64,000 nucleotides of DNA from Heloderma charlesbogerti (taxonomy: Eukaryota > Chordata > Lepidosauria > Squamata > Helodermatidae), in NCBI GenBank assembly GCA_026122225.1, contig JANEZZ010001857.1, positions 1 to 64,000 of the forward strand, read 5' to 3'. Shown piece by piece: positions 37,357 to 64,000 of the stretch; within the stretch, counting starts at the first letter, position 1; every line of letters starts with the position of its first letter. A program made the position numbers and the translations under genes. Under the pieces are notes generated by a model. The model saw only the letters and a program-made list of their open reading frames with translations, was not told where the DNA came from and ran no database searches.

Positions 37357-39617
37357 CCCCTTCATGGATCACTGCCTTGTTGTGGCGAAGGGGCTTGCGT
37401 AACTCAGTGAAGCCATAAGCTATGCCGTGCAGGGCCACCCAAGACGGACAGATCATGGCAGAGAGTTCTGACAAAATGTGGTCCACTGGAGAAGGAAATG
37501 GCAACCCACTCCAGTATTCTTGCCAAGAAAACCCCATGGAACGTATCACAAGGCTAAAAGATATGACGCCGGAAGATGAGACCCTCAGGTCGGAAGGTGT
37601 CCAATATGCTACCGGGGAAGAGCAGAGGGTATTTCCAAGTAGCGCCAGGATTTCCAAGAAAAAGAAATGCAAGAAAGCCAAGTGGCTGTCTGATGAGGCT
37701 TTACAAGTAGCTGAGGAAAGAAGGGAAGCGAAAAGCAAGGTAGAAAGGGGAAGATATATCCACCTGAATGCAGAGTTCCAGAGAATAGCAAGGAGAGACA
37801 AGAAGGCCTTCTTAAATGAATGATGAACAATGAACAATGCAAAGAAATTAAATGAACAATGCAAAGAAATCGAGGAAAACAACAGAATGGGAAAGACTAG
37901 AGATCTCTTCAAGAAAATTGGAGATCTCAAGGGAACGTTTTGTGCAAAGATGGGCATGATAAAGGACAAAGAAGGCAGGGACCTAACAGAAGCAGATGAG
38001 ATTAAGAAGAGGTGGCAAGAATACACAACTATACAGGAAAGATCTGAATGTCCCTGATAGCCATGATAGTGCGGTCACTGAACTTGAGCCAGACATCCTA
38101 GAGAGTGAAGTCAAGTGGGCCTTAGGAAGCATTACTAACAACAAAGCTAGCGGAGATGACAGTATTCCAGCTGAGCTATTTAAAATCCTAAAAGATGATG
38201 CTGTTAAAGTGCTGCATTCAATATGCCAACAAATCTGGAACACTCAACAGTGGCCACAAGACTGGAAAAGGTCAGTTTACATTCCAATTCCAAAGAAGGG
38301 CAACGCCAAAGAGTGTTCAAACTACCGCACAATTGCGCTCATTTCACATGCCAGCAAGGTGATGCTCAAAATCTTACAAGCTAGGCTTCAGCAGTATGCA
38401 AACCGAGAACTACCGGAAGTACAAGCTGGGTTTCGAAGAGGCAGAGGAACTAGAGATCAAATTGCCAACTTTCGCTGGATCATGGAGAAAGCAAGAGAAT
38501 TCCAGAAAAACATCTATTTCTGCTTCATTGACTACGCTAAAGCCTTTGATTGTGTGGATCACAACAAACTGTGGCAAATTCTTAAAGTGATGGGAGTACC
38601 AGACCACCTTATCTGTCTCCTGAGAAACCTGTACGAGGGTCAAGAAGCAACAGTAAGAACCAGACATGGAACAACCGAGTGGTTCAAAATTGGGAAAGGA
38701 GCACGACAAGGCTGCATATGGTCACCCTGCTTATTTAACTTATATGCAGAGTACATCATGAGAAACGCCGGGTTGGATGAATCACAGGTCGGAATTAAGA
38801 TCGCTGGGAGAATTATCAACAACCTCCGATATGCAGACGATACCACCCTAATGGCAGAAAGTGAAGAGGATCTCAAGAGCCTCTTGTTGAGGGTGAAAGA
38901 GGAGAGTGCAAAAGCTGGTTTGAAATACAACATTAAAAAAACGAAGATCATGGCATCTGGCCCCATCACTTCCTGGCATATAGAAGGGGAAGAAATGGAA
39001 GCAGTGACAGATTTTACTTTCTTGGGCTCCAAGATCACCGCAGACGGTGACTGTAGCCATGAAATTAAAAGACGCTTGCTCCTTGGGAGGAAAGCTGTGG
39101 CAAACCTAGACAGCATAGTAAGAAGCAGAGACATCACCTTGCCGACAAAGGTCCGTCTAATCAAAGCTATGGTTTTCCCAGTAGTAATGTATGGCTGTGA
39201 GAGCTGGACTATAAGGAAGGCTGAGTGCCGAAGAATTGATGCTTTCGAACTGTGGTGCTGGAGAAGACTCTTACGAGTCCCCTGGACTGCAAGGAGGTCA
39301 AATCAGTCCATCCTAAAGGAAATCAACCCTGAGTGCTCATTGGAAGGACAGATACTGAAGCTGAAGCTCAAATATTTTGGCCACCTAATGCGAAGAGAAA
39401 ACTCTCTGGAAAAGACCCTGATGCTGGGAAAGACTGAGGGCAAAAGGAGAAGGGGACGACAGAGGATGAGATGGCTAGACAGCATCACCGATGCAATGAA
39501 TATGAACTTGAGCACACTCCGGGAGAGAGCGCAGGACAGGAAGGCCTGGCGAGCTGTGGTCCATGGGGTCACGAAGAGTCGGACACGACTGAACAACTGA
39601 ACAACAACAACAACAAA
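37357..39617 (+). mobile_element. BovB retrotransposon, internally deleted (endonuclease missing), long open RT frame
   Basis: The 5' segment runs to about 37650, then jumps about 1 kb compared with the 26216 copy, losing the whole APE endonuclease. The remainder keeps a 534-codon open frame (37996-39600) with FIDYAKAFDCVDHNKLW, the intact box RYADD, FTFLGSKITADGD and the C-terminal tail. A 5-bp deletion near 38028 and a small tandem duplication near 37820-37860 break the frame upstream. A 13-bp duplication (one mismatch) flanks it. It lies in an INTS3 intron, antisense to INTS3. The left palindrome arm as seen here begins inside it (38993). Confidence 0.92.
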
Positions 39618-39695
39618 ATTTTGTGGTTGTAATTGTTGTGCACTGCCCAGAGAGCTTCAGCTATTGGGCGGTATAGAAATTTAAGAAATGAAGAC
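39618..39695 (+). mobile_element. CR1/L2-type LINE 3' terminus, right of BovB
   Basis: GCACTGCCCAGAGAGCTTCA and GCTATTGGGCGGTATAGAAA form the standard 3' end of this LINE type. Confidence 0.65.
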
Positions 39696-39731
39696 ATAGG
39701 CCCAAAGCCCCCCACAGTGAGTTTAGCACAG

Positions 39732-39862
39732 CCTTTCCCAACCGGATGCCCTCCAAACATTTTGGACTACAACTCCCATCCTCGCTAACCACTGGTCATG
39801 TTTTCTGGGGTTGATGGGACCTGTAGTCCAAAACAACTGGAAGGCACCAGGTTGGGGAGGCC
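39732..39862. mobile_element. R3 fold-back element
   Basis: CCTCCAAACATTTTGGACTA and CCTGTAGTCCAAAACAACTG are inverted halves; GCACCAGGTTGGGGAGGCC ends it. Confidence 0.7.
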
Positions 39863-39869
39863 TAGTTTA

Positions 39870-40570
39870 GTGGGTGAGGCTGAGTTCTCACTGAGGTGGG
39901 TCAACGTACCTCTGGACGGAGGGACCTCAGTTTTCAGGTGGGGACATGGAGGACTGTATGCTCCTCTGTACCACACCGACAACAACAGCCAGAGCTTTGT
40001 CTGTGCACAGAAAACTGTCATGTCAGGAAGAAGGTGAGGCTGGAAACAGTCATCCAGACATGTTAGCTTCCTATGCTGAGATAGGGATATATGGATTTTG
40101 TAAAATCCATTCTAAGATTCGCATATTGTCAGGTGCCTTTTGTTCCGTCATCCGTTCACTGATATAATCGGACTTTTTCCAGTTTCCCAAATTTGCGCAA
40201 ATTTGCACATTTCTGAAAGTGTGAAAAACCCTCCCAAATGCGCAAATCCTCCCCCTCAAATGCACATTTTCATGTATTAGAGTATGGGGGAAACGAGCAT
40301 TTTCGGCTGGTGTGGGGTTTTTTTAATGCATTTTCCTAACTTACATAAAATTCCAAAAATTAAAAAAGTTGGTCCACAAGTTGGCAGAATCCACGTGACT
40401 CAGTAAAAGCCAGTCCACTGCAGAATCTGGGGGCGGGATTCATAGAAATCCAAACTCATCTGAATCCATTACACATTTCTCTGACATCCCTACACTGGGA
40501 TATTTTTTAAATTTTGGTTTATATGAAGACATTCCCACACACACAGCAGTCTGTAGCGGTACAGCCACTT
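39870..40570. other. INTS3 intron, no recognised feature
   Basis: Unique-looking sequence; mirrored in the right arm. Confidence 0.45.
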
Positions 40571-40573
40571 TTG

Positions 40574-40645
40574 CCAGCTCACTAGGGATTTGAACCCAAG
40601 TCTCCTCAGGAGCAGTCGCATACTCTATCCACTACACCACCCTGG
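40574..40645 (-). mobile_element. tRNA-SINE head fragment
   Basis: Read in reverse, GGGTGGTGTAGTGGATAGAG and GACTTGGGTTCAAATCCCTA are tRNA-like A- and B-box regions. Confidence 0.6.
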
Positions 40646-40649
40646 GTTT

Positions 40650-41040
40650 TGTATAATGGGGCTGGGTGGAAAAATAAGACATTTTCAACATTCTAGTTTT
40701 GTATCTCTCTCTCTCTCTCCCCCCGCAACCCATCCAGGTTGGAGTATCTCAGTCTCTCAAAAGGTTTGGATGTTGAAAGTGGGCCAACAGTAGCACACTA
40801 AGCGAGGTTACTCAGAGACCCAAGAGGGCATCCTCCCTAGTAATGGTGCTCAGACCTGGACTGCAAAATTAGGCAAAGAAACTCTTATTTGGTTTAACAT
40901 GCTTCCTGACCACAGGATTTCGTCTTCCGCAGTTCAGGACTGGAAGCGGGGAGGGGGCTCAGCACGTTGGGGGCCACAGGGCAGCCCATAGTCCTGGCAA
41001 GGTCTCCAAAAACACTGAGTGCTAAAAGAAACCCCCCCTT
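40650..41040. other. INTS3 intron, no recognised feature
   Basis: Only a short (CT)n tract near 40704-40722. Confidence 0.45.
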
Positions 41041-41185
41041 TATTATTTTATTTATTTTATTGAATGATTTCATTTCTATACCGCCCAATAGCCAAAGCTC
41101 TCTGGGAGGTTCACAAACATTTAAACCAAAAAGCACACAGTAAAACAATATAAAATATAAAAACATCCCGCTGCCAATTCTCCAC
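41041..41185 (-). mobile_element. CR1/L2-type LINE 3' end, minus orientation
   Basis: ATTTCTATACCGCCCAATAG followed by CCAAAGCTCTCTGGGAGGTT is the reversed 3' terminus, with an (ATTT)n tail. Confidence 0.65.
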
Positions 41186-41189
41186 CAGC

Positions 41190-42195
41190 CACAACGCAGC
41201 CAGGAAATGAGAGGAAGCCAGGTGGGAAAGAATCACAGTGATATATGAGGGCAATCGAGGAACAGCTGGGGGAAAAACACGAGGTTTGGGGGTTTTTTTT
41301 AAGGCTGGGAACATCCAGAGTGTAGCAGGGGCCTAGCGAAGGATCAGGGCCCCCCCATGTCAGTTCAAACCTTTCCCATACATGATACCATCTGGTTGCC
41401 CTGCCAAGGAAAACCAGCCGAAGATTCAGACAGTCCCCAAACTGGCATGGGAAAAAGAGAAACTCTTTTACAACGGAACAGGGGAAAAACTGAGAGGTTT
41501 ATCCAAGGATGGGGGTGGGAGATCATCCCGTCGTCACCCCTGCGCCCCCCCTTCAGGCTCAGAAGTCTTACGCGTGGGGCCTGCGAATATATTGGCTGCT
41601 GAAGTCCCTGCCATTCTCCCCCCACCCCCCGCCTCTCCACTTTGGCTATTTTGGGGTTAGTCCACACTGGTGCCATAGCAACCTATTAGCACTGGCACCA
41701 CACAGCGGCCTTGCTCTCATGAGGCTCTTTACCCAGAACTCCACTCCAGCGCCGTTATCGTTTCTAAAATAAAACGGGGCTGGAGATCAGACTTGCCAGT
41801 AAGTCTGGACCTCTGGCCTGGCCATCAATTATTCCAACTTGGGGCGGGGGAGTTGGCTGCGGTGGCTTCCCAGGACTGAGCTCTGGGTGTCAGGAAAAGT
41901 GCCCGGAGTCCGACTCAAATTATGCCCCAGGGCCAGATGCTGGGCCAGATGTGCCAGCAGGGGGAGCCTCTCCCCAGCTCCCAGGCTGCAAAGCGACCTG
42001 GCAGATGACAAAAACTGTGCCCTGGACTGGGAAGTTTGATGGGAGGGCAGAAAGGAACCCAGTCCAATCTTCTTCCTGAAAGACAGGCCCATCCAGCCAC
42101 CAGTCTCCCAGTGGAGGTGGGGAGAAAACTGACTGTCTATCCCATCAAAAAGTTCCTATTGATGTTTTTTGTTATCAATCATTTATGTCCAACAT
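41190..42195. other. INTS3 intron, no recognised feature
   Basis: G+C-rich, non-repetitive; no supported coding frame. Confidence 0.45.
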
Positions 42196-42197
42196 GA

Positions 42198-42438
42198 AGA
42201 GAGCCAGTGTAGTGTAGTGGCTAGAGTGTTGGACTAGGGCTTGGGAAACTGGGTTTTAGTTTCCACTCGGCCAAAAAGCTCACTGGGCGCCTTTGGGACA
42301 GTCACTGGCTCTCAGCCTAACCTACCTCAAAGGGTTGTTGTGAGGATAAAATGGAGAGGAGGAGGACCACATACGCCACCTTAGGCTCCTTGGAGGAAAA
42401 GGCGGGATATAAATGTAACAAACAAACAAACAAACAAA
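42198..42438 (+). mobile_element. tRNA-derived SINE, plus orientation
   Basis: The best copy of its family in the window: GTAGTGTAGTGGCTAGAGTG (A-box region), TGGACTAGGGCTTGGG, TCAGCCTAACCTACCTCAAA, GGTTGTTGTGAGGATAAAAT, CTCCTTGGAGGAAAAGGCGG, ATATAAATGTAA and a (CAAA)n tail. Confidence 0.8.
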
Positions 42439-42489
42439 GCATTTTGAAAGTTAATTTGTTGGTGGTGTGTATGATTGTCAAAGATAGAC

Positions 42490-42745
42490 AGACTAAAAAC
42501 AGAATAATTTAAATATATATTTAGCGCTGAACATGATACTGGTGAAGGCAGAAGCTGAAATGCTTAGCACAACATATATCTTTAAATTAGTCAGTTGTTC
42601 GTCTGTCTCTTCAAAGATAGATAGACTAACAGCGGAGTAGTTTAAAATGTATTTAGTGCTAAACATGATACTGATGAAGGCGGAAGATGAAACGCTTAGC
42701 ATTAATATGTTTTAAAATTACTCCATTCTTAGTCTATCTATCTTT
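42490..42745 (+). repeat. Two-unit tandem repeat, about 125 bp each
   Basis: TTTAGCGCTGAACATGATAC with GGTGAAGGCAGAAGCTGAAA in unit one is repeated as TTTAGTGCTAAACATGATAC with TGATGAAGGCGGAAGATGAA in unit two. Each unit is followed by AGATAGAC-like text. Confidence 0.75.
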
Positions 42746-42847
42746 CTTATGTATTTTAACTGATGACTGACGGCATCCACACTGGATCCAGAGCCTCCTG
42801 GTTGCTTTTTGCTGTTGTGCCACTTTACACTCCCACCCTCTCTCTCT

Positions 42848-42849
<2 letters not shown>

Positions 42850-42879
<30 letters not shown>
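42850..42879 (+). repeat. (TG)n microsatellite
   Basis: About 15 TG units, same length as its mirror at 60114-60143. Confidence 0.9.
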
Positions 42880-42880
<1 letters not shown>

Positions 42881-43308
42881 CCACCTAAGTGTGTGTATAT
42901 GTATGTATTGTTAAATCAAATTCAGTCCTGTAAACCCCACCCACCCGTTCTTAATTTGCACTGTTAAATTCGGTCCTCGCAAACCCCACCCACCCATTTT
43001 TGCAGGCTGGGGAGGGCCCAAAGATGAAATTGAGAAAAAGCTGCACAGAGCGGAGTGGTAGTTCGCACCCAGACCCTTCCCCCTTGGGCTGCTGCTCTTT
43101 CCCCTACCCTTAGAATCACGGGACGGCTGAACCCGAGTCCCCCCATCTTGGTTTGGGTTGAGAACCCAACTCCGGTCCTGAAACAGATGGTGCATTTTGC
43201 CACATTCACGCAAACCCTGATGGGCAGACCGGCCGGCCATTGCAGGAGCCAAGAAATGCAACACGTGGATCCTGCATTCTCCCTCTTCTCCACACAGGCG
43301 GATCTTAC

Positions 43309-43377
43309 CTGAGCCGAGTCGATGACGGCCACAATCATGTTCAGCAGCTCCCCGCTCCGCAAGGTCTCGTCTGGAAA
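43309..43377 (-). CDS. INTS3: INTS3 exon, left-arm copy
   Basis: 69 bp, exactly 23 codons (FPDETLRSGELLNMIVAVID then SAQ), phase 0 on both sides, acceptor TCTCAG, donor GTAAGA. It is the last left-arm exon that is duplicated in the visible right arm. Confidence 0.96.
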
Positions 43378-43536
43378 CTGAGATGGAGAGGTAGACAAAC
43401 AAAAGATGGTAAAAGGAGACCTGTTCCCTCTTTCAAAGGCTCCTCCCACTTTCGGGGGGGGTACTACTACATTTTTGGCCTGGTTTACGTAAGCAACAGA
43501 ATCAGGTGATAGAATCCTGATGTGGTTCACTGGACT

Positions 43537-43659
43537 GGCTTCCCCAACATGGTGGCCTCCAGAAGTTTTGGACTTCAACTCCCATCAGCCCCAGCCAGTA
43601 TGGCGAACAATCAGGAATGCTGGGAGTTGTAGTCTGGAGGGCACCTGGTTGGGGAAGTC
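43537..43659. mobile_element. R3 fold-back element carrying a ZNF143/THAP11-like motif
   Basis: CTTCCCCAACATGGTGGCCT and the inverse GGCACCTGGTTGGGGAAG enclose TTTGGACTTCAACTCCCATC and AATGCTGGGAGTTGTAGTCT. The latter reads ACTACAACTCCCAGCATT in reverse, close to the ACTACAnnTCCCAGnATGC consensus I recall for ZNF143/THAP11. Confidence 0.65.
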
Positions 43660-43664
43660 TACAT

Positions 43665-45210
43665 TGGACTGTACTACTTCTGACAAGTGGGAGCATACAA
43701 TTTTTGTGAATATTCCCCTATATTTTTTTTTTACTTCCTTGCTTGTAGAAAACTAGTACATCAAGGAAAGAGGTTCTAGATCACCCTTCCCTCCTAATTT
43801 TCTATCTGCAGGGAGTGTTTATACAAGAGAGCCTTTAAAAATGGCACAGATCCCGCCCAACTGCAGTCTAAAGTAGTACAGTGCATTCTATCACCTCAGG
43901 ACTCTACCACGTCATTCTGCTGCATGGAGCAGGGTGGGGGAGAGAAGAGATAGACCCTTTGTTCTGTCTCATCCAGAATTCTGTGGAACTTCCAAGCTTG
44001 CATATTCATACTCCTAAACTGGTCTCACTAAAAGATATTTACTTAGTATATTTATATCCTAACTTCTTCCATCATGGAACTTAACGTGGGGTGTTGTTGT
44101 ACTCTCTCTCTCTCTCTCTTTTTAAGCTAACATGCAGATTCTTGTTATTCTGTTGGCAGAGTAAAGCCAAGGGCATCAGAGCTTTTTTTTTTTAAAGCCC
44201 TCTGTGCCACAAGTAACCCAAATCTGTCGCCTAAATATACGTTGAACAAATGTTGCATCATTTATTCCACTCCTTAGGGAGAGAGGTAAACCAAGGCCCT
44301 GATCCCTGGAAAACTTCCCCTACACTCCCCATCTGCCAGCTTCTTTCACCAAGCTACTGGGTTGTGGATTCAAATTCTGAAACAAAATTCTTCACACAGA
44401 AAAATTGGAAGTGGAAAGATTTGTCTCTCTCAGGCAAGTCCTCCCCATTTTTCCCTGCATGGCTGCAACTACAGCCTTGGCCCTTCCTCCTACATACAGC
44501 AGGGGGGGCCACAGGCTGTGCACAGCTGGCTAGTGAAGAGGAAAGGTACCCAGGACAGACAGCGCAGAAGCCAAATCCAATTTGTTAGTTCGCTTTTCCG
44601 TTGTCAAATATGCAGAAAAATCTGACACTTGACACGCTGTTCAAAATTAGAAATGAACTGGAGCGTGCAAAACAGCAAATAGGATTAAGAGTGGCCAACA
44701 ACCGCCCCCCCCGCCGCCCCAATTTTGTACAGAACTCGTTAGCTGTTTTGCTCCATGGAACAGCAAGTACTATTTTTGCAGTGAGATGCTTTGGGCTGCA
44801 TCGGTACAATGGAATGACAGCAGCCCCCGCCCCCCCCGCCCCAATCCAGGACTCCCACAGCCAGTTCCCAGGTGTGTTTGTTTATTGCGGGAGGGGTAAA
44901 CTGGGGAGGGGGGAGTGCTTTCTCCCCAGGGCAGGGGTGTCCAAGTCAAGCGGGTTGGAAGGCCAAATTTCCCACCCCCAGATGGTAGCACAGTACCACA
45001 ACCACATTCCCTCTCCCCCCCACCACAACCGAGTGAAATTCACAACACCAAACTAGCCATTTCAACTGACACTAAAATAGGGGGGGGGGAGGAGAGAGAG
45101 AGAGAGAGAGAGAGAATAGGACAGCCCCAGGCAGCACGGTGGGGGCCATAGCCTAATACGTCTGCACCGTTACCCTGGGGGAGTTTTTCTTAATTCGCAT
45201 GATTTTTATT
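43665..45210. other. INTS3 intron, no gene recognised
   Basis: A (CT)n tract at 44102-44119, an 11-T run near 44183 and a (GA)n tract at 45090-45115. Frames such as 44601-45056 are unsupported. Confidence 0.45.
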
Positions 45211-45216
45211 AGCATT

Positions 45217-45421
45217 AGAATCATAGAATAGTAGGGCTGGAAGGGGCCTACAAGGCCATCGAGTCCAACCCCCTGCTCGATGCAGGAATCCAAGTCAGAG
45301 CATCCCTGACAGATGGCTGTCCAGCCTCGTCTTGTACGCCTCCAGTGCGGGAGAGCCCACCACCTCCCTAGGGAATTGGTTCCGTTGTCGTATTGCTCTA
45401 ACAGTCAGGAAGTTTTTATAT
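45217..45421 (-). mobile_element. CR1 LINE 3' portion, minus orientation
   Basis: AGAATCATAGAATAGTAGGG, CTGGAAGGGGCCTACAAGGC, CATCGAGTCCAACCCCCTGC and GTTCCGTTGTCGTATTGCTC are reversed CR1 3' UTR and ORF2-end text. Confidence 0.8.
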
Positions 45422-45520
45422 TAATATTAGTATTGTTATTAGGGCCGTGTCCTCCCAAAGCAACATATATTACACGAACGGTAAGTTGCAAGGCAACAGC
45501 AGGCCGGCCATTTCAAAGGA

Positions 45521-45672
45521 AGAAAGAAAAACTGCCTTATACTGAGTCAGACCCCTGGTCCGTCTGGCCCGGTGTTGTTAACACCGGCAGCAGCGGCACT
45601 CCAGGGTTTCAGGCAGGATTCATTCCCAGGCCTACCTGGAGATGCCGCTGGGGATTGATCTCAGGACCTCGG
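45521..45672 (-). mobile_element. tRNA-derived SINE R4
   Basis: ACTGCCTTATACTGAGTCAG, CAGCGGCACTCCAGGGTTTC, CTACCTGGAGATGCCGCTGG and GGGATTGATCTCAGGACCTC follow the family order; an R2-like scrap (TCGGGCTGAAAATGGC) follows. Confidence 0.65.
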
Positions 45673-45714
45673 GCTGAAAATGGCTCCCCACCCCTGCTCC
45701 AGAGTCTCAGGAGG

Positions 45715-45874
45715 ATTAAAGAGCACAGCCAGGTCCTGCTGATGGACCAGAAACGGGGAAGGGGTCACGGGGTCCTGCGCCAACCAGCTGCTGCAGTACA
45801 TGGCACGCTACACCCAGGAAAGGCCTCCCCACAGCAAGAGGCTCACCACCCTGGCTTGTCGTCTGGCTGAATAA
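45715..45874 (+). pseudogene. Protein-like segment with one frameshift (possible retrocopy fragment)
   Basis: Read on the plus strand, IKEHSQVLLMDQ in one frame is continued, after a one-base shift near 45753, by NGEGVTGSCANQLLQYMARY then TQERPPHSKRLTTLACRLAE and a TAA at 45872-45874. The composition is protein-like rather than repeat-like, but I do not recognise the parent. It lies between an R4 SINE and a BovB stub, on the strand opposite INTS3. A chance frame is possible. Confidence 0.25.
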
Positions 45875-46189
45875 TGGAAGCAATCAAGCGTTTCATTAAA
45901 CCTAACGGCCTGGAGAACATGCAACGTAAGCCTCCGTCGAGCCCGGCCGCGTCCAGTGATGGCTCTGGGTCTGCGAGCCACATGCAATCACTCAAGAAGC
46001 ATGAGAGAAAACACTGGGGGAAGACGAAGCGGGGCGGAGGGGAGAAAAACGAGGCTCCTGGAGAGGAAAGCAAAGGGTGTGTGTGGGGGGGCTTAACGAG
46101 GGTTATTTCTCTCTCTCTGCCCCCCAATATGGCAACAATAATACCAACCTGCCATACAGGACCCTTTGAAGGAATACCAAGAAAACATG

Positions 46190-46315
46190 TTAGCATCACT
46201 GATGCAATGAATATGGACTTGAGCATGCTCCGGGAGAGAGCGCAGGACAGGAAGGCCTGGCATGCTATGGTCCATGGGGTCACGAACAGTCAGACCCGAC
46301 TGAACGACTGAACAA
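46190..46315 (+). mobile_element. 5'-truncated BovB 3' stub with 12-bp target-site duplication
   Basis: The 126 bp match the BovB C terminus (MNMDLSMLRERAQDRKAW, then a TGA) and end AACGACTGAACAA. CAAGAAAACATG occurs at 46178-46189 and again at 46316-46327, marking a precise insertion in an INTS3 intron. Confidence 0.9.
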
Positions 46316-46505
46316 CAAGAAAACATGCAAAGTGTTCCCTTAAAGTTCTACTTTCGTACCGAGCCTGCTTTGTTTCTCCTGGGCAACTGGAGGAAGACAA
46401 GGGGTCATGCAGGGCCCGGCCTGAGCGCCAAATCCTCAACCGCCACCCCCGCCACCCTGCAGAGAGGCCTGGAAAGCTCTGTCCGCTCCTCCCGCCGGGC
46501 CTGAC

Positions 46506-46659
46506 CTCGGTGTAGATGGAAGGCGTGAGGTAGCAGAGGAGCCGGATGTCGTCCTCCTGGCAAGCCTTCATGTCCATCATCAGGCACGTGTGCAGGTCGC
46601 CCAGCTGGGTGGCCTGGGCAAAGGACTCGTAGAGGTTCATCTTCCCAGCCGCCGCTTTG
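46506..46659 (-). CDS. INTS3: INTS3 exon, left-arm copy
   Basis: 154 bp, acceptor TTTTTCAG, donor GTCAGG (GT followed by a less usual CAGG). It encodes KAAAGKMNLYESFAQATQLG then DLHTCLMMDMKACQEDDIRL and LCYLTPSIYTE. Conservative changes from the human protein as I recall it are V to I (EDDIRL) and H to Y (LCYL). Confidence 0.96.
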
Positions 46660-46758
46660 CTGAAAAAGAAGGAAGGGGCGCCAGGCCAGGTAAGCGAGCG
46701 GAAGGCTGGAGCTGATCCATTAGGGATTTGCGCAAACGAGAAGCGGTACAGAACTCCT

Positions 46759-46834
46759 CCTCCTCCTAAGAAGAAGACTAATAAGAATACTAACACTGCT
46801 AAGAATACTAACAATACTGCTAAGAATCCTACTC
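46759..46834 (+). repeat. AAGAATACTAA-type minisatellite, left part
   Basis: Units such as AAGAATACTAACACTGCT repeat with small variations. The array continues at 46950-47078 after a fold-back element. Confidence 0.75.
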
Positions 46835-46949
46835 AGGGCGCATGCATGCTTAGACAAGAGAAAAGGCCTACAACTCCCAGCATTCCCCAGCCAGAATGCT
46901 GGGAGTTGTAGGCCTTTTCTCTGTCTAACCATGCATAGGATTGCGCCCT
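46835..46949. mobile_element. Fold-back MITE (115 bp) inside the minisatellite
   Basis: The ends AGGGCGCA and TGCGCCCT are inverted, as are CATGCTTAGAC/GTCTAACCATG and GAGAAAAGGCCTACAACTCC / GGAGTTGTAGGCCTTTTCTC. The core CCAGCATTCCCCAGCCAGAA is itself nearly symmetric. A diverged sister lies at 708-844. Confidence 0.8.
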
Positions 46950-47078
46950 AAGAACACTACTACTACTTCTACTACTAAGAAGAATACTAATAAGAATACT
47001 AACACTGCTAAGAATACTAAGAATACTGCTAAGAATACTACCAAGAATACTGATACTACTAAGAATACTACTAAGGGA
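46950..47078 (+). repeat. AAGAATACTAA-type minisatellite, right part
   Basis: It continues the array with AAGAATACTAATAAGAATAC and GATACTACTAAGAATACTAC units. Confidence 0.75.
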
Positions 47079-47144
47079 GCCCTGTGCAGGGGGAACTTGC
47101 GCCCCAAGCGAGGTCTCAGGTTTTTTAGGACTTCAGAACAGTGG

Positions 47145-47362
47145 GTAACCATGAGAGGAGTGTGGTCCTCCTTCCTCAGGGGCACTACACCTATGTGCCC
47201 CAGTTGCTGGGGAACGTGGGCAGGAGGGTGCTGTTGCAGTCCTGTCCTGCTTGTGGGTTTCCTGTGGGCAGCTGGTTGGCCACTGTGCGAACAGAATGCT
47301 GGAATAGGTGGACCTTTGGCCTGATCCAGCTTCAGGACTCTTCTTACGTTCTTATGTTCCCC
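47145..47362 (-). repeat. R1 repeat, minus orientation
   Basis: In reverse it reads GAACATAAGAACGTAAGAAG, GGATCAGGCCAAAGGTCCAC, CACAGTGGCCAACCAGCTGC and CACAAGCAGGACAGGACTGC, the cleanest R1 copy in the window. Confidence 0.7.
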
Positions 47363-53830: not shown

Positions 53831-54008
53831 TCACTGCTTCTCCAACCTCTTCATTTTTTCATCTGCCTCCCCCACTACATCCTGCAGTTTCACAGCTGTT
53901 TTAGTCAAGGCAGCAAAGCTTTCTTTGAGGCTGTCTGTCCCCACTTCCCTCCCTACATTGTCAAGGCTGTCAAACCACTGGAGGACTCTTTTGAGATATG
54001 CCTGAACA
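53831..54008 (-). pseudogene. Unidentified coding-like segment, mirror copy
   Basis: Reverse complement of 48985-49162, identical translation. Confidence 0.3.
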
Positions 54009-54014
54009 ACCTTT

Positions 54015-54318
54015 TGCACTTCTCAATTGTGGCACCCCATTTACAGAATACCCTCTCCAAGAAGGCTCGCCTGGTGCCTTCATTGTTATCTTTTCAGCAC
54101 AAGGTGAAGACGTGTGTCTTCTCCCAGGCATTTTAGATTTTACTGCTGCATTTCTATGTTTTACACTGTTGGGTTTTTTTTTCTGTGCTGTTTATTGTTG
54201 TTGTTTTGTATTCTATTTATATTCTTCTTCTTTTTTTGCTTTGTAATCCACACAGAGAGCATTTGTTATTTGGTGGGTTAAAAATATAATACATAAATAA
54301 ATAATAAAATTTAAAAAT
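54015..54318 (+). mobile_element. CR1/L2-type LINE 3' fragment, mirror copy
   Basis: Reverse complement of 48675-48978. Confidence 0.6.
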
Positions 54319-54442
54319 AGAATCGTTAAGAAATGTGTGTGTGATGTGCGTAAGGGTTTGGCTTTGTGGATTGTTGGTTGACCTGATGTTTTCCTGACAC
54401 ATTTTCTCTCTCTCTCTTTCTCTCTCTCCCCTTTCCATACAG

Positions 54443-54487
54443 ATCTCTAGAGGAATCCGTGGGGAAGCCGCTTTACCTAATATTTAG
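54443..54487 (+). CDS. INTS3: INTS3 exon, right-arm copy (SLEESVGKPLYLIF)
   Basis: Mirror of 48506-48550, with identical splice sites and codons. It is the most upstream exon on this strand; no promoter or 5' exon precedes it, because the sequence to its left is the other arm. Confidence 0.92.
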   Translation: MSRGIRGEAALPNI

Positions 54488-54499
54488 GTATGTCCCATG

Positions 54500-55070
54500 C
54501 TTTCCAACCTTCTGCCGTCTCTTCTGTATCTCATGCTCTGTGATGTGGGGAGGGGCTACAGCAGAGTATGCACAAACGCATGCATGCATGCCTTTGCACA
54601 CACCGATTCATTCCACCTTCTTGTGTCTTTGGCTTTGACCCCGATGGTACAAGTTTGTCAGGCCCTGTCCAGATGCTGGTTTGTTCGTTCTCTCTCTCTC
54701 TCTCTCTCTCTCTGTCCGGCATTGCCTACTAGGGGGCAGGCTTGAAAGAGAGCTAGAGGCAGGGCTGTGGCAAGAGAGGAGGCAACCCAACTGAGTTGTG
54801 GGCTCATAATTGCTCTCCATAATTGCTCTCTTGGCCGTAGCACACTAGCGATCCCTTGTTTTACGGCCAGTGGAGAGTGTGTGACTGCAATGGGAACGAG
54901 TCTGGCTGCGAAATCAGCTAGCCAGGGCGGGGCGGGGGGCATGCTCACATACACAGGGCCGCTCCCTTCAAACCTTTAGCCTACACTAGAAGCACCACAC
55001 CGTGTTCACGGTGCTGAATTTGAACCTAACCCAGCTCCGCTTTCATCTCCCTTCTGTCCTCCCCCAATCC
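54500..55070. other. Mirror of INTS3 intron, no recognised feature
   Basis: Reverse complement of the 47925-48490 stretch, including the (CT)n at 54689-54713. Confidence 0.6.
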
Positions 55071-55078
55071 CTGTTCAG

Positions 55079-55198
55079 GAACCTCTGCCAGATGCAAGAG
55101 GACAACAGCAGCTTCTCCGTGCTACTGGATCTCTTGTCTGAGCTCTACCAGAAACAGCCCAAGATTGGCTACCACCTTCTCTATTACTTAAAAGCCAG
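55079..55198 (+). CDS. INTS3: INTS3 exon, right-arm copy (NLCQMQEDN...)
   Basis: Mirror of 47795-47914, identical in sequence and phase. Confidence 0.95.
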
Positions 55199-55320
55199 GT
55201 GAGGCTGCCAAGGAGTGAGTCTACAAAGAGTTTACAGGAGGTTTGGGGAAGACTCCTATTCAAAGGGCAGCCCAGAGAGGGGACAGACACAGCTAGAATC
55301 ATGACTGTGATTCCATACTA

Positions 55321-55438
55321 CAGCCTTCCCCTTCTAGATGTTTGGGGCTCCAACTACCAGCATCCTGGACCCTTGGCTCTGGGGGTGATGGGTCTTGAAG
55401 TCCCAAACATCTGGAGGGCACCAGCTTGGGGAAGGCTG
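55321..55438. mobile_element. R3 fold-back element, mirror copy
   Basis: Reverse complement of 47555-47672. Confidence 0.7.
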
Positions 55439-55472
55439 CCGTATCATAGAGTGCTCTCTTCTGGAAGTTGAA

Positions 55473-55563
55473 AGGGCCTTCTCCTACATTATGCTAGCAC
55501 TTTACAACAACCCGGTAAGGGAGGTCAGTGGCATTATCCCCACTTTGCAGGTGGGGATGTGCT
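55473..55563 (-). mobile_element. MIR-like relic, mirror copy
   Basis: Reverse complement of 47430-47520. Confidence 0.45.
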
Positions 55564-55630
55564 AAGACCGCGGGTGAGTGGCTTGATGAAGATTGGCAAA
55601 TGAGATAGGGGCTGGAATGAGATTTGTACT

Positions 55631-55848
55631 GGGGAACATAAGAACGTAAGAAGAGTCCTGAAGCTGGATCAGGCCAAAGGTCCACCTATTCCAGCATTCT
55701 GTTCGCACAGTGGCCAACCAGCTGCCCACAGGAAACCCACAAGCAGGACAGGACTGCAACAGCACCCTCCTGCCCACGTTCCCCAGCAACTGGGGCACAT
55801 AGGTGTAGTGCCCCTGAGGAAGGAGGACCACACTCCTCTCATGGTTAC
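55631..55848 (+). repeat. R1 repeat, mirror copy
   Basis: Reverse complement of 47145-47362; here the canonical R1 orientation is on the plus strand. Confidence 0.7.
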
Positions 55849-55914
55849 CCACTGTTCTGAAGTCCTAAAAAACCTGAGACCTCGCTTGGGGCGCAAGTTC
55901 CCCCTGCACAGGGC

Positions 55915-56234
55915 TCCCTTAGTAGTATTCTTAGTAGTATCAGTATTCTTGGTAGTATTCTTAGCAGTATTCTTAGTATTCTTAGCAGTGTTAGTATTCT
56001 TATTAGTATTCTTCTTAGTAGTAGAAGTAGTAGTAGTGTTCTTAGGGCGCAATCCTATGCATGGTTAGACAGAGAAAAGGCCTACAACTCCCAGCATTCT
56101 GGCTGGGGAATGCTGGGAGTTGTAGGCCTTTTCTCTTGTCTAAGCATGCATGCGCCCTGAGTAGGATTCTTAGCAGTATTGTTAGTATTCTTAGCAGTGT
56201 TAGTATTCTTATTAGTCTTCTTCTTAGGAGGAGG
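55915..56234 (-). repeat. Minisatellite with nested fold-back MITE (56044-56158), mirror copy
   Basis: Reverse complement of 46759-47078, same unit number and same MITE. Confidence 0.75.
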
Positions 56235-56333
56235 AGGAGTTCTGTACCGCTTCTCGTTTGCGCAAATCCCTAATGGATCAGCTCCAGCCTTCCGCTCGCT
56301 TACCTGGCCTGGCGCCCCTTCCTTCTTTTTCAG

Positions 56334-56487
56334 CAAAGCGGCGGCTGGGAAGATGAACCTCTACGAGTCCTTTGCCCAGGCCACCCAGCTGGGCGACCTG
56401 CACACGTGCCTGATGATGGACATGAAGGCTTGCCAGGAGGACGACATCCGGCTCCTCTGCTACCTCACGCCTTCCATCTACACCGAG
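56334..56487 (+). CDS. INTS3: INTS3 exon, right-arm copy (KAAAGKMNLYESF...)
   Basis: Mirror of 46506-46659, identical including the I and Y substitutions. Confidence 0.95.
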
Positions 56488-56677
56488 GTCAGGCCCGGCG
56501 GGAGGAGCGGACAGAGCTTTCCAGGCCTCTCTGCAGGGTGGCGGGGGTGGCGGTTGAGGATTTGGCGCTCAGGCCGGGCCCTGCATGACCCCTTGTCTTC
56601 CTCCAGTTGCCCAGGAGAAACAAAGCAGGCTCGGTACGAAAGTAGAACTTTAAGGGAACACTTTGCATGTTTTCTTG

Positions 56678-56803
56678 TTGTTCAGTCGTTCAGTCGGGTC
56701 TGACTGTTCGTGACCCCATGGACCATAGCATGCCAGGCCTTCCTGTCCTGCGCTCTCTCCCGGAGCATGCTCAAGTCCATATTCATTGCATCAGTGATGC
56801 TAA
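56678..56803 (-). mobile_element. BovB 3' stub, mirror copy
   Basis: Reverse complement of 46190-46315. The same 12-bp target duplication lies at 56666-56677 and 56804-56815. Confidence 0.9.
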
Positions 56804-57118
56804 CATGTTTTCTTGGTATTCCTTCAAAGGGTCCTGTATGGCAGGTTGGTATTATTGTTGCCATATTGGGGGGCAGAGAGAGAGAAATAACCCTCGTTAA
56901 GCCCCCCCACACACACCCTTTGCTTTCCTCTCCAGGAGCCTCGTTTTTCTCCCCTCCGCCCCGCTTCGTCTTCCCCCAGTGTTTTCTCTCATGCTTCTTG
57001 AGTGATTGCATGTGGCTCGCAGACCCAGAGCCATCACTGGACGCGGCCGGGCTCGACGGAGGCTTACGTTGCATGTTCTCCAGGCCGTTAGGTTTAATGA
57101 AACGCTTGATTGCTTCCA

Positions 57119-57278
57119 TTATTCAGCCAGACGACAAGCCAGGGTGGTGAGCCTCTTGCTGTGGGGAGGCCTTTCCTGGGTGTAGCGTGCCATGTACTGC
57201 AGCAGCTGGTTGGCGCAGGACCCCGTGACCCCTTCCCCGTTTCTGGTCCATCAGCAGGACCTGGCTGTGCTCTTTAAT
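57119..57278 (-). pseudogene. Frameshifted protein-like segment, mirror copy
   Basis: Reverse complement of 45715-45874 with the same frameshift. Confidence 0.25.
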
Positions 57279-57320
57279 CCTCCTGAGACTCTGGAGCAGG
57301 GGTGGGGAGCCATTTTCAGC

Positions 57321-57472
57321 CCGAGGTCCTGAGATCAATCCCCAGCGGCATCTCCAGGTAGGCCTGGGAATGAATCCTGCCTGAAACCCTGGAGTGCCGC
57401 TGCTGCCGGTGTTAACAACACCGGGCCAGACGGACCAGGGGTCTGACTCAGTATAAGGCAGTTTTTCTTTCT
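57321..57472 (+). mobile_element. R4 SINE, mirror copy
   Basis: Reverse complement of 45521-45672. Confidence 0.65.
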
Positions 57473-57571
57473 TCCTTTGAAATGGCCGGCCTGCTGTTGC
57501 CTTGCAACTTACCGTTCGTGTAATATATGTTGCTTTGGGAGGACACGGCCCTAATAACAATACTAATATTA

Positions 57572-57776
57572 ATATAAAAACTTCCTGACTGTTAGAGCAA
57601 TACGACAACGGAACCAATTCCCTAGGGAGGTGGTGGGCTCTCCCGCACTGGAGGCGTACAAGACGAGGCTGGACAGCCATCTGTCAGGGATGCTCTGACT
57701 TGGATTCCTGCATCGAGCAGGGGGTTGGACTCGATGGCCTTGTAGGCCCCTTCCAGCCCTACTATTCTATGATTCT
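57572..57776 (+). mobile_element. CR1 LINE 3' portion, mirror copy
   Basis: Reverse complement of 45217-45421; CR1 reads forward here and ends near AGCCCTACTATTCTATGATT. Confidence 0.8.
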
Positions 57777-57779
57777 AAT

Positions 57780-59330
57780 GCTAATAAAAATCATGCGAAT
57801 TAAGAAAAACTCCCCCAGGGTAACGGTGCAGACGTATTAGGCTATGGCCCCCACCGTGCTGCCTGGGGCTGTCCTATTCTCTCTCTCTCTCTCTCTCTCT
57901 CCTCCCCCCCCCCTATTTTAGTGTCAGTTGAAATGGCTAGTTTGGTGTTGTGAATTTCACTCGGTTGTGGTGGGGGGGAGAGGGAATGTGGTTGTGGTAC
58001 TGTGCTACCATCTGGGGGTGGGAAATTTGGCCTTCCAACCCGCTTGACTTGGACACCCCTGCCCTGGGGAGAAAGCACTCCCCCCTCCCCAGTTTACCCC
58101 TCCCGCAATAAACAAACACACCTGGGAACTGGCTGTGGGAGTCCTGGATTGGGGCGGGGGGGGCGGGGGCTGCTGTCATTCCATTGTACCGATGCAGCCC
58201 AAAGCATCTCACTGCAAAAATAGTACTTGCTGTTCCATGGAGCAAAACAGCTAACGAGTTCTGTACAAAATTGGGGCGGCGGGGGGGGCGGTTGTTGGCC
58301 ACTCTTAATCCTATTTGCTGTTTTGCACGCTCCAGTTCATTTCTAATTTTGAACAGCGTGTCAAGTGTCAGATTTTTCTGCATATTTGACAACGGAAAAG
58401 CGAACTAACAAATTGGATTTGGCTTCTGCGCTGTCTGTCCTGGGTACCTTTCCTCTTCACTAGCCAGCTGTGCACAGCCTGTGGCCCCCCCTGCTGTATG
58501 TAGGAGGAAGGGCCAAGGCTGTAGTTGCAGCCATGCAGGGAAAAATGGGGAGGACTTGCCTGAGAGAGACAAATCTTTCCACTTCCAATTTTTCTGTGTG
58601 AAGAATTTTGTTTCAGAATTTGAATCCACAACCCAGTAGCTTGGTGAAAGAAGCTGGCAGATGGGGAGTGTAGGGGAAGTTTTCCAGGGATCAGGGCCTT
58701 GGTTTACCTCTCTCCCTAAGGAGTGGAATAAATGATGCAACATTTGTTCAACGTATATTTAGGCGACAGATTTGGGTTACTTGTGGCACAGAGGGCTTTA
58801 AAAAAAAAAAGCTCTGATGCCCTTGGCTTTACTCTGCCAACAGAATAACAAGAATCTGCATGTTAGCTTAAAAAGAGAGAGAGAGAGAGAGTACAACAAC
58901 ACCCCACGTTAAGTTCCATGATGGAAGAAGTTAGGATATAAATATACTAAGTAAATATCTTTTAGTGAGACCAGTTTAGGAGTATGAATATGCAAGCTTG
59001 GAAGTTCCACAGAATTCTGGATGAGACAGAACAAAGGGTCTATCTCTTCTCTCCCCCACCCTGCTCCATGCAGCAGAATGACGTGGTAGAGTCCTGAGGT
59101 GATAGAATGCACTGTACTACTTTAGACTGCAGTTGGGCGGGATCTGTGCCATTTTTAAAGGCTCTCTTGTATAAACACTCCCTGCAGATAGAAAATTAGG
59201 AGGGAAGGGTGATCTAGAACCTCTTTCCTTGATGTACTAGTTTTCTACAAGCAAGGAAGTAAAAAAAAAATATAGGGGAATATTCACAAAAATTGTATGC
59301 TCCCACTTGTCAGAAGTAGTACAGTCCAAT
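57780..59330. other. Mirror of INTS3 intron, no gene recognised
   Basis: Reverse complement of about 43663-45213, with matching microsatellites. Confidence 0.6.
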
Positions 59331-59333
59331 GTA

Positions 59334-59456
59334 GACTTCCCCAACCAGGTGCCCTCCAGACTACAACTCCCAGCATTCCTGATTGTTCGCCATACTGGCT
59401 GGGGCTGATGGGAGTTGAAGTCCAAAACTTCTGGAGGCCACCATGTTGGGGAAGCC
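59334..59456. mobile_element. R3 fold-back element, mirror copy
   Basis: Reverse complement of 43537-43659; ACTACAACTCCCAGCATTCC is here on the plus strand. Confidence 0.65.
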
Positions 59457-59615
59457 AGTCCAGTGAACCACATCAGGATTCTATCACCTGATTCTGTTGC
59501 TTACGTAAACCAGGCCAAAAATGTAGTAGTACCCCCCCCGAAAGTGGGAGGAGCCTTTGAAAGAGGGAACAGGTCTCCTTTTACCATCTTTTGTTTGTCT
59601 ACCTCTCCATCTCAG

Positions 59616-59684
59616 TTTCCAGACGAGACCTTGCGGAGCGGGGAGCTGCTGAACATGATTGTGGCCGTCATCGACTCGGCTCAG
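59616..59684 (+). CDS. INTS3: INTS3 exon, right-arm copy (FPDETLRSGELL...)
   Basis: Mirror of 43309-43377. The next exon in order would lie beyond 64000, at about 66674 if the symmetry continues. Confidence 0.95.
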
Positions 59685-60112
59685 GTAAGATCCGCCTGTG
59701 TGGAGAAGAGGGAGAATGCAGGATCCACGTGTTGCATTTCTTGGCTCCTGCAATGGCCGGCCGGTCTGCCCATCAGGGTTTGCGTGAATGTGGCAAAATG
59801 CACCATCTGTTTCAGGACCGGAGTTGGGTTCTCAACCCAAACCAAGATGGGGGGACTCGGGTTCAGCCGTCCCGTGATTCTAAGGGTAGGGGAAAGAGCA
59901 GCAGCCCAAGGGGGAAGGGTCTGGGTGCGAACTACCACTCCGCTCTGTGCAGCTTTTTCTCAATTTCATCTTTGGGCCCTCCCCAGCCTGCAAAAATGGG
60001 TGGGTGGGGTTTGCGAGGACCGAATTTAACAGTGCAAATTAAGAACGGGTGGGTGGGGTTTACAGGACTGAATTTGATTTAACAATACATACATATACAC
60101 ACACTTAGGTGG

Positions 60113-60113
<1 letters not shown>

Positions 60114-60143
<30 letters not shown>
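60114..60143 (+). repeat. (CA)n microsatellite, mirror copy
   Basis: Same length as its partner at 42850-42879. Confidence 0.9.
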
Positions 60144-60145
<2 letters not shown>

Positions 60146-60247
60146 AGAGAGAGAGGGTGGGAGTGTAAAGTGGCACAACAGCAAAAAGCAACCAGGAGGC
60201 TCTGGATCCAGTGTGGATGCCGTCAGTCATCAGTTAAAATACATAAG

Positions 60248-60503
60248 AAAGATAGATAGACTAAGAATGGAGTAATTTTAAAACATATTAATGCTAAGCG
60301 TTTCATCTTCCGCCTTCATCAGTATCATGTTTAGCACTAAATACATTTTAAACTACTCCGCTGTTAGTCTATCTATCTTTGAAGAGACAGACGAACAACT
60401 GACTAATTTAAAGATATATGTTGTGCTAAGCATTTCAGCTTCTGCCTTCACCAGTATCATGTTCAGCGCTAAATATATATTTAAATTATTCTGTTTTTAG
60501 TCT
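60248..60503 (-). repeat. Two-unit tandem repeat, mirror copy
   Basis: Reverse complement of 42490-42745. Confidence 0.75.
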
Positions 60504-60554
60504 GTCTATCTTTGACAATCATACACACCACCAACAAATTAACTTTCAAAATGC

Positions 60555-60795
60555 TTTGTTTGTTTGTTTGTTTGTTACATTTATATCCCGCCTTTTCCTC
60601 CAAGGAGCCTAAGGTGGCGTATGTGGTCCTCCTCCTCTCCATTTTATCCTCACAACAACCCTTTGAGGTAGGTTAGGCTGAGAGCCAGTGACTGTCCCAA
60701 AGGCGCCCAGTGAGCTTTTTGGCCGAGTGGAAACTAAAACCCAGTTTCCCAAGCCCTAGTCCAACACTCTAGCCACTACACTACACTGGCTCTCT
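60555..60795 (-). mobile_element. tRNA-derived SINE, mirror copy
   Basis: Reverse complement of 42198-42438. Confidence 0.8.
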
Positions 60796-60799
60796 TCAT

Positions 60800-61805
60800 G
60801 TTGGACATAAATGATTGATAACAAAAAACATCAATAGGAACTTTTTGATGGGATAGACAGTCAGTTTTCTCCCCACCTCCACTGGGAGACTGGTGGCTGG
60901 ATGGGCCTGTCTTTCAGGAAGAAGATTGGACTGGGTTCCTTTCTGCCCTCCCATCAAACTTCCCAGTCCAGGGCACAGTTTTTGTCATCTGCCAGGTCGC
61001 TTTGCAGCCTGGGAGCTGGGGAGAGGCTCCCCCTGCTGGCACATCTGGCCCAGCATCTGGCCCTGGGGCATAATTTGAGTCGGACTCCGGGCACTTTTCC
61101 TGACACCCAGAGCTCAGTCCTGGGAAGCCACCGCAGCCAACTCCCCCGCCCCAAGTTGGAATAATTGATGGCCAGGCCAGAGGTCCAGACTTACTGGCAA
61201 GTCTGATCTCCAGCCCCGTTTTATTTTAGAAACGATAACGGCGCTGGAGTGGAGTTCTGGGTAAAGAGCCTCATGAGAGCAAGGCCGCTGTGTGGTGCCA
61301 GTGCTAATAGGTTGCTATGGCACCAGTGTGGACTAACCCCAAAATAGCCAAAGTGGAGAGGCGGGGGGTGGGGGGAGAATGGCAGGGACTTCAGCAGCCA
61401 ATATATTCGCAGGCCCCACGCGTAAGACTTCTGAGCCTGAAGGGGGGGCGCAGGGGTGACGACGGGATGATCTCCCACCCCCATCCTTGGATAAACCTCT
61501 CAGTTTTTCCCCTGTTCCGTTGTAAAAGAGTTTCTCTTTTTCCCATGCCAGTTTGGGGACTGTCTGAATCTTCGGCTGGTTTTCCTTGGCAGGGCAACCA
61601 GATGGTATCATGTATGGGAAAGGTTTGAACTGACATGGGGGGGCCCTGATCCTTCGCTAGGCCCCTGCTACACTCTGGATGTTCCCAGCCTTAAAAAAAA
61701 CCCCCAAACCTCGTGTTTTTCCCCCAGCTGTTCCTCGATTGCCCTCATATATCACTGTGATTCTTTCCCACCTGGCTTCCTCTCATTTCCTGGCTGCGTT
61801 GTGGC
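60800..61805. other. Mirror of INTS3 intron, no recognised feature
   Basis: Reverse complement of 41188-42193. Confidence 0.6.
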
Positions 61806-61807
61806 TG

Positions 61808-61952
61808 GTGGAGAATTGGCAGCGGGATGTTTTTATATTTTATATTGTTTTACTGTGTGCTTTTTGGTTTAAATGTTTGTGAACCTCCCAGAGAGCTTTG
61901 GCTATTGGGCGGTATAGAAATGAAATCATTCAATAAAATAAATAAAATAATA
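61808..61952 (+). mobile_element. CR1/L2-type LINE 3' end, mirror copy
   Basis: Reverse complement of 41041-41185; GAGAGCTTTGGCTATTGGGC reads forward here. Confidence 0.65.
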
Positions 61953-62347
61953 AAGGGGGGGTTTCTTTTAGCACTCAGTGTTTTTGGAGACCTTGCCAGG
62001 ACTATGGGCTGCCCTGTGGCCCCCAACGTGCTGAGCCCCCTCCCCGCTTCCAGTCCTGAACTGCGGAAGACGAAATCCTGTGGTCAGGAAGCATGTTAAA
62101 CCAAATAAGAGTTTCTTTGCCTAATTTTGCAGTCCAGGTCTGAGCACCATTACTAGGGAGGATGCCCTCTTGGGTCTCTGAGTAACCTCGCTTAGTGTGC
62201 TACTGTTGGCCCACTTTCAACATCCAAACCTTTTGAGAGACTGAGATACTCCAACCTGGATGGGTTGCGGGGGGAGAGAGAGAGAGAGATACAAAACTAG
62301 AATGTTGAAAATGTCTTATTTTTCCACCCAGCCCCATTATACAAAAC

Positions 62348-62419
62348 CCAGGGTGGTGTAGTGGATAGAGTATGCGACTGCTCCTGAGGAGACTTGGGTT
62401 CAAATCCCTAGTGAGCTGG
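62348..62419 (+). mobile_element. tRNA-SINE head fragment, mirror copy
   Basis: Reverse complement of 40574-40645. Confidence 0.6.
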
Positions 62420-62422
62420 CAA

Positions 62423-63123
62423 AAGTGGCTGTACCGCTACAGACTGCTGTGTGTGTGGGAATGTCTTCATATAAACCAAAATTTAAAAAATATCCCAGTG
62501 TAGGGATGTCAGAGAAATGTGTAATGGATTCAGATGAGTTTGGATTTCTATGAATCCCGCCCCCAGATTCTGCAGTGGACTGGCTTTTACTGAGTCACGT
62601 GGATTCTGCCAACTTGTGGACCAACTTTTTTAATTTTTGGAATTTTATGTAAGTTAGGAAAATGCATTAAAAAAACCCCACACCAGCCGAAAATGCTCGT
62701 TTCCCCCATACTCTAATACATGAAAATGTGCATTTGAGGGGGAGGATTTGCGCATTTGGGAGGGTTTTTCACACTTTCAGAAATGTGCAAATTTGCGCAA
62801 ATTTGGGAAACTGGAAAAAGTCCGATTATATCAGTGAACGGATGACGGAACAAAAGGCACCTGACAATATGCGAATCTTAGAATGGATTTTACAAAATCC
62901 ATATATCCCTATCTCAGCATAGGAAGCTAACATGTCTGGATGACTGTTTCCAGCCTCACCTTCTTCCTGACATGACAGTTTTCTGTGCACAGACAAAGCT
63001 CTGGCTGTTGTTGTCGGTGTGGTACAGAGGAGCATACAGTCCTCCATGTCCCCACCTGAAAACTGAGGTCCCTCCGTCCAGAGGTACGTTGACCCACCTC
63101 AGTGAGAACTCAGCCTCACCCAC
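62423..63123. other. Mirror of INTS3 intron, no recognised feature
   Basis: Reverse complement of 39870-40570. Confidence 0.6.
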
Positions 63124-63130
63124 TAAACTA

Positions 63131-63261
63131 GGCCTCCCCAACCTGGTGCCTTCCAGTTGTTTTGGACTACAGGTCCCATCAACCCCAGAAAACATGACCA
63201 GTGGTTAGCGAGGATGGGAGTTGTAGTCCAAAATGTTTGGAGGGCATCCGGTTGGGAAAGG
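63131..63261. mobile_element. R3 fold-back element, mirror copy
   Basis: Reverse complement of 39732-39862. Confidence 0.7.
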
Positions 63262-63297
63262 CTGTGCTAAACTCACTGTGGGGGGCTTTGGGCCTAT

Positions 63298-63375
63298 GTC
63301 TTCATTTCTTAAATTTCTATACCGCCCAATAGCTGAAGCTCTCTGGGCAGTGCACAACAATTACAACCACAAAAT
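63298..63375 (-). mobile_element. CR1/L2-type LINE terminus, mirror copy
   Basis: Reverse complement of 39618-39695; the BovB target duplication is at 63363-63375. Confidence 0.65.
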
Positions 63376-64000
63376 TTTGTTGTTGTTGTTGTTCAGTTGT
63401 TCAGTCGTGTCCGACTCTTCGTGACCCCATGGACCACAGCTCGCCAGGCCTTCCTGTCCTGCGCTCTCTCCCGGAGTGTGCTCAAGTTCATATTCATTGC
63501 ATCGGTGATGCTGTCTAGCCATCTCATCCTCTGTCGTCCCCTTCTCCTTTTGCCCTCAGTCTTTCCCAGCATCAGGGTCTTTTCCAGAGAGTTTTCTCTT
63601 CGCATTAGGTGGCCAAAATATTTGAGCTTCAGCTTCAGTATCTGTCCTTCCAATGAGCACTCAGGGTTGATTTCCTTTAGGATGGACTGATTTGACCTCC
63701 TTGCAGTCCAGGGGACTCGTAAGAGTCTTCTCCAGCACCACAGTTCGAAAGCATCAATTCTTCGGCACTCAGCCTTCCTTATAGTCCAGCTCTCACAGCC
63801 ATACATTACTACTGGGAAAACCATAGCTTTGATTAGACGGACCTTTGTCGGCAAGGTGATGTCTCTGCTTCTTACTATGCTGTCTAGGTTTGCCACAGCT
63901 TTCCTCCCAAGGAGCAAGCGTCTTTTAATTTCATGGCTACAGTCACCGTCTGCGGTGATCTTGGAGCCCAAGAAAGTAAAATCTGTCACTGCTTCCATTT
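63376..64000 (-). mobile_element. BovB (RT-bearing copy), mirror copy, cut by window end
   Basis: Reverse complement of 38993-39617; the last 201 codons of the open RT frame are at 63393-63998. It continues past the window. Confidence 0.92.

Follow-up and report, generated by a model that had tools for sequence, protein, structure and literature searches.

At least 25,008 bp of a 64,000-nucleotide stretch of DNA from Heloderma charlesbogerti (GenBank assembly GCA_026122225.1, contig JANEZZ010001857.1, positions 1 to 64,000 of the forward strand; referred to below as the window) form a perfect palindrome, the axis of which lies inside an intron of INTS3, the gene for Integrator complex subunit 3. 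Judged from its sequence, this palindrome is very probably a technical fold-back introduced during sequencing or assembly, and not a biological feature. We favour this reading because the two arms do not differ at all, even in their homopolymers and dinucleotide arrays, because no spacer separates them, and because the axis falls inside a gene.

A base-by-base comparison of positions 38993-51496 with the reverse complement of positions 51497-64000 revealed not a single mismatch in 12,504 pairs and no shift, which places the 95% upper bound of the divergence between the arms at 2.4e-4. Such identity cannot be attributed to chance. The halves meet without a spacer between 51496 and 51497, at GGGCT/AGCCC. 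The original prediction had stated that every position p pairs with 102993-p about this same spacerless centre, and this was borne out for every p in 38993-51496. What it had said of the repeats also agreed with the comparison: the 11-T run near 44183 is present and equal in both arms, the (TG)n arrays are mirrored ((GT)15 at 42850, with its mirror (AC)15 at 60114), and the same applies to the minisatellite, a AAGAATACT-type repeat at 46782-47075 with its mirror at 55918-56211. Altogether, the arm holds eight homopolymers of at least 8 bases and six dinucleotide arrays of at least 6 units, all of which are the same in both arms. The length of 25,008 bp is a minimum, because the window edge fixes both of the given ends: position 64000 is that edge, and position 38993 is merely its mirror position. 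Indeed, no boundary is visible at 38993, since a BovB copy aligned at about 37848-39613 by self-blastn continues through it. Of the palindrome predicted at 38993..64000, the symmetry and the minimum size of 25 kb were upheld, while these two positions are not its known ends. Two small natural inverted repeats are also found in the window, at 46842-46936 and 711-842, which match their own reverse complements by about 89% and 77%, respectively.

The gene content around the axis was determined by tblastn with human INTS3 as the query, which matches PDB entry 8rbz chain c (Integrator complex subunit 3) end to end. Twelve ordered segments were recovered on the − strand, from 48549 down to 17316, and their union covers human codons 643-1042 without a gap; some of the segment ends extend a few residues into an intron. 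Four segments (codons 643-657, 655-696, 697-748 and 747-773) are located in the left arm and mirrored on the + strand in the right arm, whereas the other 8 of the 12 occur once, in the left flank. The identity to the human protein amounts to 85-100% in each of the four arm exons, all of which are flanked by AG acceptors and GT donors as read by eye. With these splice signals intact, the locus looks like a gene and not like a decayed copy. The left side as a whole resembles an ordinary gene locus, where the 3′ part of INTS3 with its splice signals is followed downstream by an open reading frame (ORF) with an AMP-binding domain. This ORF presumably belongs to SLC27A3, which we take to be the neighbour of INTS3.

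Compared with vertebrate INTS3 (PDB 8rbz chain c), codons 643-1042 are thus shared, whereas four exons are mirrored and codons 1-642 were not found in the window. For the latter, tblastn yielded no credible match on either strand of the whole window, the best one scoring 26.9 bits. The best matches represented alanine/glycine-rich stretches and weak partial similarities, for example one of 33% identity with an internal stop, and relaxing the search to an E value of 10000 gave nothing better among the best 12 matches and those near the axis. Since codons 643-1042 were all recovered, including even the exon of 15 residues, lost sensitivity is argued against as the explanation for codons 1-642. 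The axis lies in the intron that separates INTS3 codons 642 and 643, at a distance of about 2.9 kb upstream from the exon for codons 643-657. The INTS3 content of the right arm consists of only four internal exons (codons 643-773), which are reversed and headless.

In addition, the axis probably interrupts a copy of a long interspersed element (LINE), which we take to be of the CR1/L2 type. A paralogue of this LINE at 25088-25007 on the − strand aligns to 51405-51487 and then continues, whereas the arm instead has 9 other bases and then reaches the axis. Two further LINE copies that were compared fall short of this point, and the truncation rests on one paralogue. Taken as observed, the symmetry is an exact reverse-complement symmetry about a single point with nothing between the halves, and the axis falls without regard to genes or repeats, as it interrupts the INTS3 intron and likely also this LINE. 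In the original prediction, a fold-back chimera or the joining of a contig to its reverse complement was favoured, and a recent real duplication was kept as an alternative. The preference for an artefact is supported by the location of the axis in an INTS3 intron and by the fact that codons 1-642 were not found in the window, and it is further backed by the missing spacer, the lack of any difference between the arms, an arm GC content that is not elevated over the flank and the probable truncation of the LINE.

Normal sequence of the INTS3 locus extends from the left up to position 51496, where its own exact reverse complement takes over. The fold-back could have arisen as follows. The locus would have become joined to itself at 51496/51497 through a fold-back read, in which the template is followed by its complement, or through an amplified molecule; alternatively, the assembler may have passed from a contig end into the reverse complement of that same contig. 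As every read from the locus would also fit the mirrored arm, extension and polishing would be expected to produce letter-identical arms. The true sequence to the right of 51496 would then comprise the remaining intron, probably with the remaining LINE, followed by the INTS3 5′ exons. The sequence does not discriminate between these routes. To examine whether a short inverted repeat close to the axis had allowed snap-back priming, exact 8- to 14-base words from the final 60 bp of the arm were compared with reverse complements within its last 2 kb. The longest shared word had 10 bases (at 51437 and 49692) and does not put an axis at 51496, so this candidate was rejected as unsupported.

Artefacts of comparable form have been described. 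Passages of PMC12870357 report fold-backs in about 0.55-0.6% of Oxford Nanopore Technologies genomic reads, document long-read fold-backs without intervening sequence, and indicate that unremoved ones can tangle assembly graphs. As in the window, a sequence in these artefact reads passes directly into its reverse complement, in many cases with few or no intervening bases; however, they are single and near-perfect reads, whereas here an assembled window displays full identity over a palindrome of at least 25 kb. Whole-genome amplification likewise generates palindromic reads, which made up 45.8% and 11.8% of two sets according to passages of PMC6218980, where the 0.5% of palindromic reads in a non-amplified PacBio set are ascribed to false positives and to missed or missing adaptors. 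The same passages relate that an earlier assembly of the gorilla Y contained numerous inverted duplications, whereas an assembly of corrected reads contained none. The amplification palindromes and missed-SMRTbell-adaptor reads described there resemble the present case as inverted duplications about a single axis that disturb assemblies or find their way into them, but in contrast to the missed-adaptor reads the axis here carries no adaptor sequence. In the part of the tegu genome paper (PMC6304105) that touches on missed adapters, these are mentioned merely as a read artefact.

Several considerations weigh against a technical fold-back. The artefact is inferred from the sequence. PacBio HiFi data are, in passages of PMC12870357, virtually without fold-backs, and a HiFi-based assembly would make the read-level route less likely. 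The axis contains no non-palindromic insert, so there is no adaptor remnant to back the missed-adaptor route, and the last 9 unmatched bases may reflect ordinary divergence of the LINE copy or the true end of the LINE. Furthermore, their absence from the window does not prove a break, since codons 1-642 could be located on the − strand beyond position 64000; the mirrored arm would then represent an inverted insertion within an intron, and INTS3 might be intact. Lastly, zero divergence is equally expected of a real inverted duplication only a few generations old, formed by fold-back replication or repair in the germline, in somatic tissue or in cultured cells, and possibly heterozygous. Such a spacerless duplication of at least 25 kb would have to lie inside the INTS3 intron or replace the 5′ half of INTS3, be too young for the arms to have diverged, and be tolerated although cruciforms make it unstable and its pre-mRNA could fold into a duplex of more than 12 kb. 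Not one substitution or microsatellite change could have followed the event in arms of 12.5 kb, perfect palindromes without a spacer are expected to be unstable, and the axis lies inside INTS3, which we presume to be single-copy and essential. Hairpin-capped ends could nevertheless yield a spacerless fold-back biologically, and a model of that kind is outlined in part of PMC10766183. On balance, we consider a real duplication of this sort unlikely.

It is very unlikely that the window contains a long-lived palindrome with arms homogenised by gene conversion, as on the mammalian X and Y. Mammalian sex-chromosome palindromes, as portrayed in passages of PMC8981503, are also large inverted repeats with near-identical arms, yet they have unique spacers and, in 12 conserved primate X palindromes, GC-rich arms (median arm GC of ∼45-46% versus 41% in the flanks), neither of which is seen here. 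The word stem 'palindrome' occurs once in the main text of the rattlesnake W paper PMC9447483. In the window, the mean GC content was 0.487 over five 2-kb bins of the arm (40001-50000) versus 0.501 over nineteen bins at 1-38000, both averaged by hand and with the left flank as the flank. Moreover, the arms are totally identical across 12.5 kb, and what is seen to be duplicated is an internal gene fragment that has no head. A gene-converted palindrome was thus rejected for its lack of a spacer, of any arm difference and of GC elevation.

There is hardly any likelihood that two copies of one restriction fragment end were joined head to head in a cloning or ligation chimera, which would in any case be a sub-type of the artefact. 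The central hexamer GCT/AGC is a restriction site, presumably of the NheI/BfaI type; however, most self-complementary tetramers are presumably the site of some enzyme, and the site carries almost no weight. In fact, GCTAGC at the axis is uninformative because the centre of any even palindrome is self-complementary, and restriction-site ligation was set aside for this reason. A technical fold-back is the reading that we retain, and the features on which it bears are listed in the table.

Table. Features in and around the palindrome (window coordinates).
Feature	Position	Strand	Basis or remark
Left arm	38993..51496	+	joins single-copy left flank without a break; INTS3 exons for codons 643-773 on − strand
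Right arm	51497..64000	−	exact reverse complement of left arm; cut through by window edge
Axis region	51487..51506		LINE-paralogue similarity stops at 51487, 9 bases short of axis
INTS3 exon, codons 643-657, nearest to axis on left	48505..48549	−	tblastn, 15 residues at 100% identity; splice signals (AG acceptor, GT donor) by eye
INTS3 exon, codons 655-696	47797..47922	−	tblastn, 93% identity
INTS3 exon, codons 697-748	46506..46661	−	tblastn, 96% identity; Pfam PF24566 HEAT_Ints3_C
INTS3 exon, codons about 749-773	43303..43383	−	tblastn, 85% identity
Mirror copies of four INTS3 arm exons, headless	54444-54488, 55071-55196, 56332-56487, 59610-59690 (span 54444..59690)	+	tblastn
INTS3 exons, codons 770-1042, single copy, left flank	17316..36325	−	tblastn, 8/12 segments
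CR1/L2-type LINE fragment (presumed family), probably truncated at axis	51063..51487	+	comparison with paralogue
BovB/RTE LINE copy adjoining axis inside arm, middle deleted	49608..51067	+	self-blastn; family via homologues of sister copy 37987-39597
ORF with AMP-binding domain	4296..5147	−	PF00501, E 6.6e-16; read as SLC27A3 exon 1

The INTS3 introns in the window harbour three BovB/RTE copies, at 26215-29421, 37356-39613 and 49608-51067, which share the same orientation and are 89-95% alike in the pieces aligned by self-blastn. The BovB ORF at 37987-39597 has retained an open frame of 537 codons and matches RVT_1. Among 120 listed homologues of this ORF, the top-ranked ones displayed 83% identity at a query coverage of 98%, and the highest identity, 86%, was reached at a coverage of 77% (Varanus); the named sources in this list included Podarcis, Varanus, Anolis, Bos and other ruminants, as well as a few bacterial and Babesia records. 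The latter include BovB proteins filed under Staphylococcus aureus, Mycoplasmopsis arginini and Babesia ovata on contigs of ∼2.2-3.4 kb, and these records look like contamination with host DNA. A second, distinct reverse-transcriptase ORF at 12774-13598 represents another LINE (RVT_1, E 2.2e-11). An INTS3 intron also contains, at 32418-33013, an imperfect (GA)n purine tract of about 600 bp with GAGT and AGAC sub-repeats. A tandem repeat with 2.4 copies of a 105-bp unit is located at 4096-4340 and touches the AMP-binding ORF at its downstream end. No RNA family was matched in the window at the Rfam gathering thresholds, and ARAGORN detected neither a transfer RNA nor a transfer-messenger RNA gene in it.

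Left uncorrected, the fold-back would lead to false gene models in the form of two headless INTS3 pieces, to a false segmental duplication and possibly to a giant perfect palindrome being claimed in error. The value of the finding most likely lies mainly in the quality control of assemblies, and its interest is otherwise low. The approach, which asks at which of its codons a known gene breaks off at the axis and if a repeat interrupted there has a copy that continues elsewhere, is usable on other windows for which no reads are at hand.
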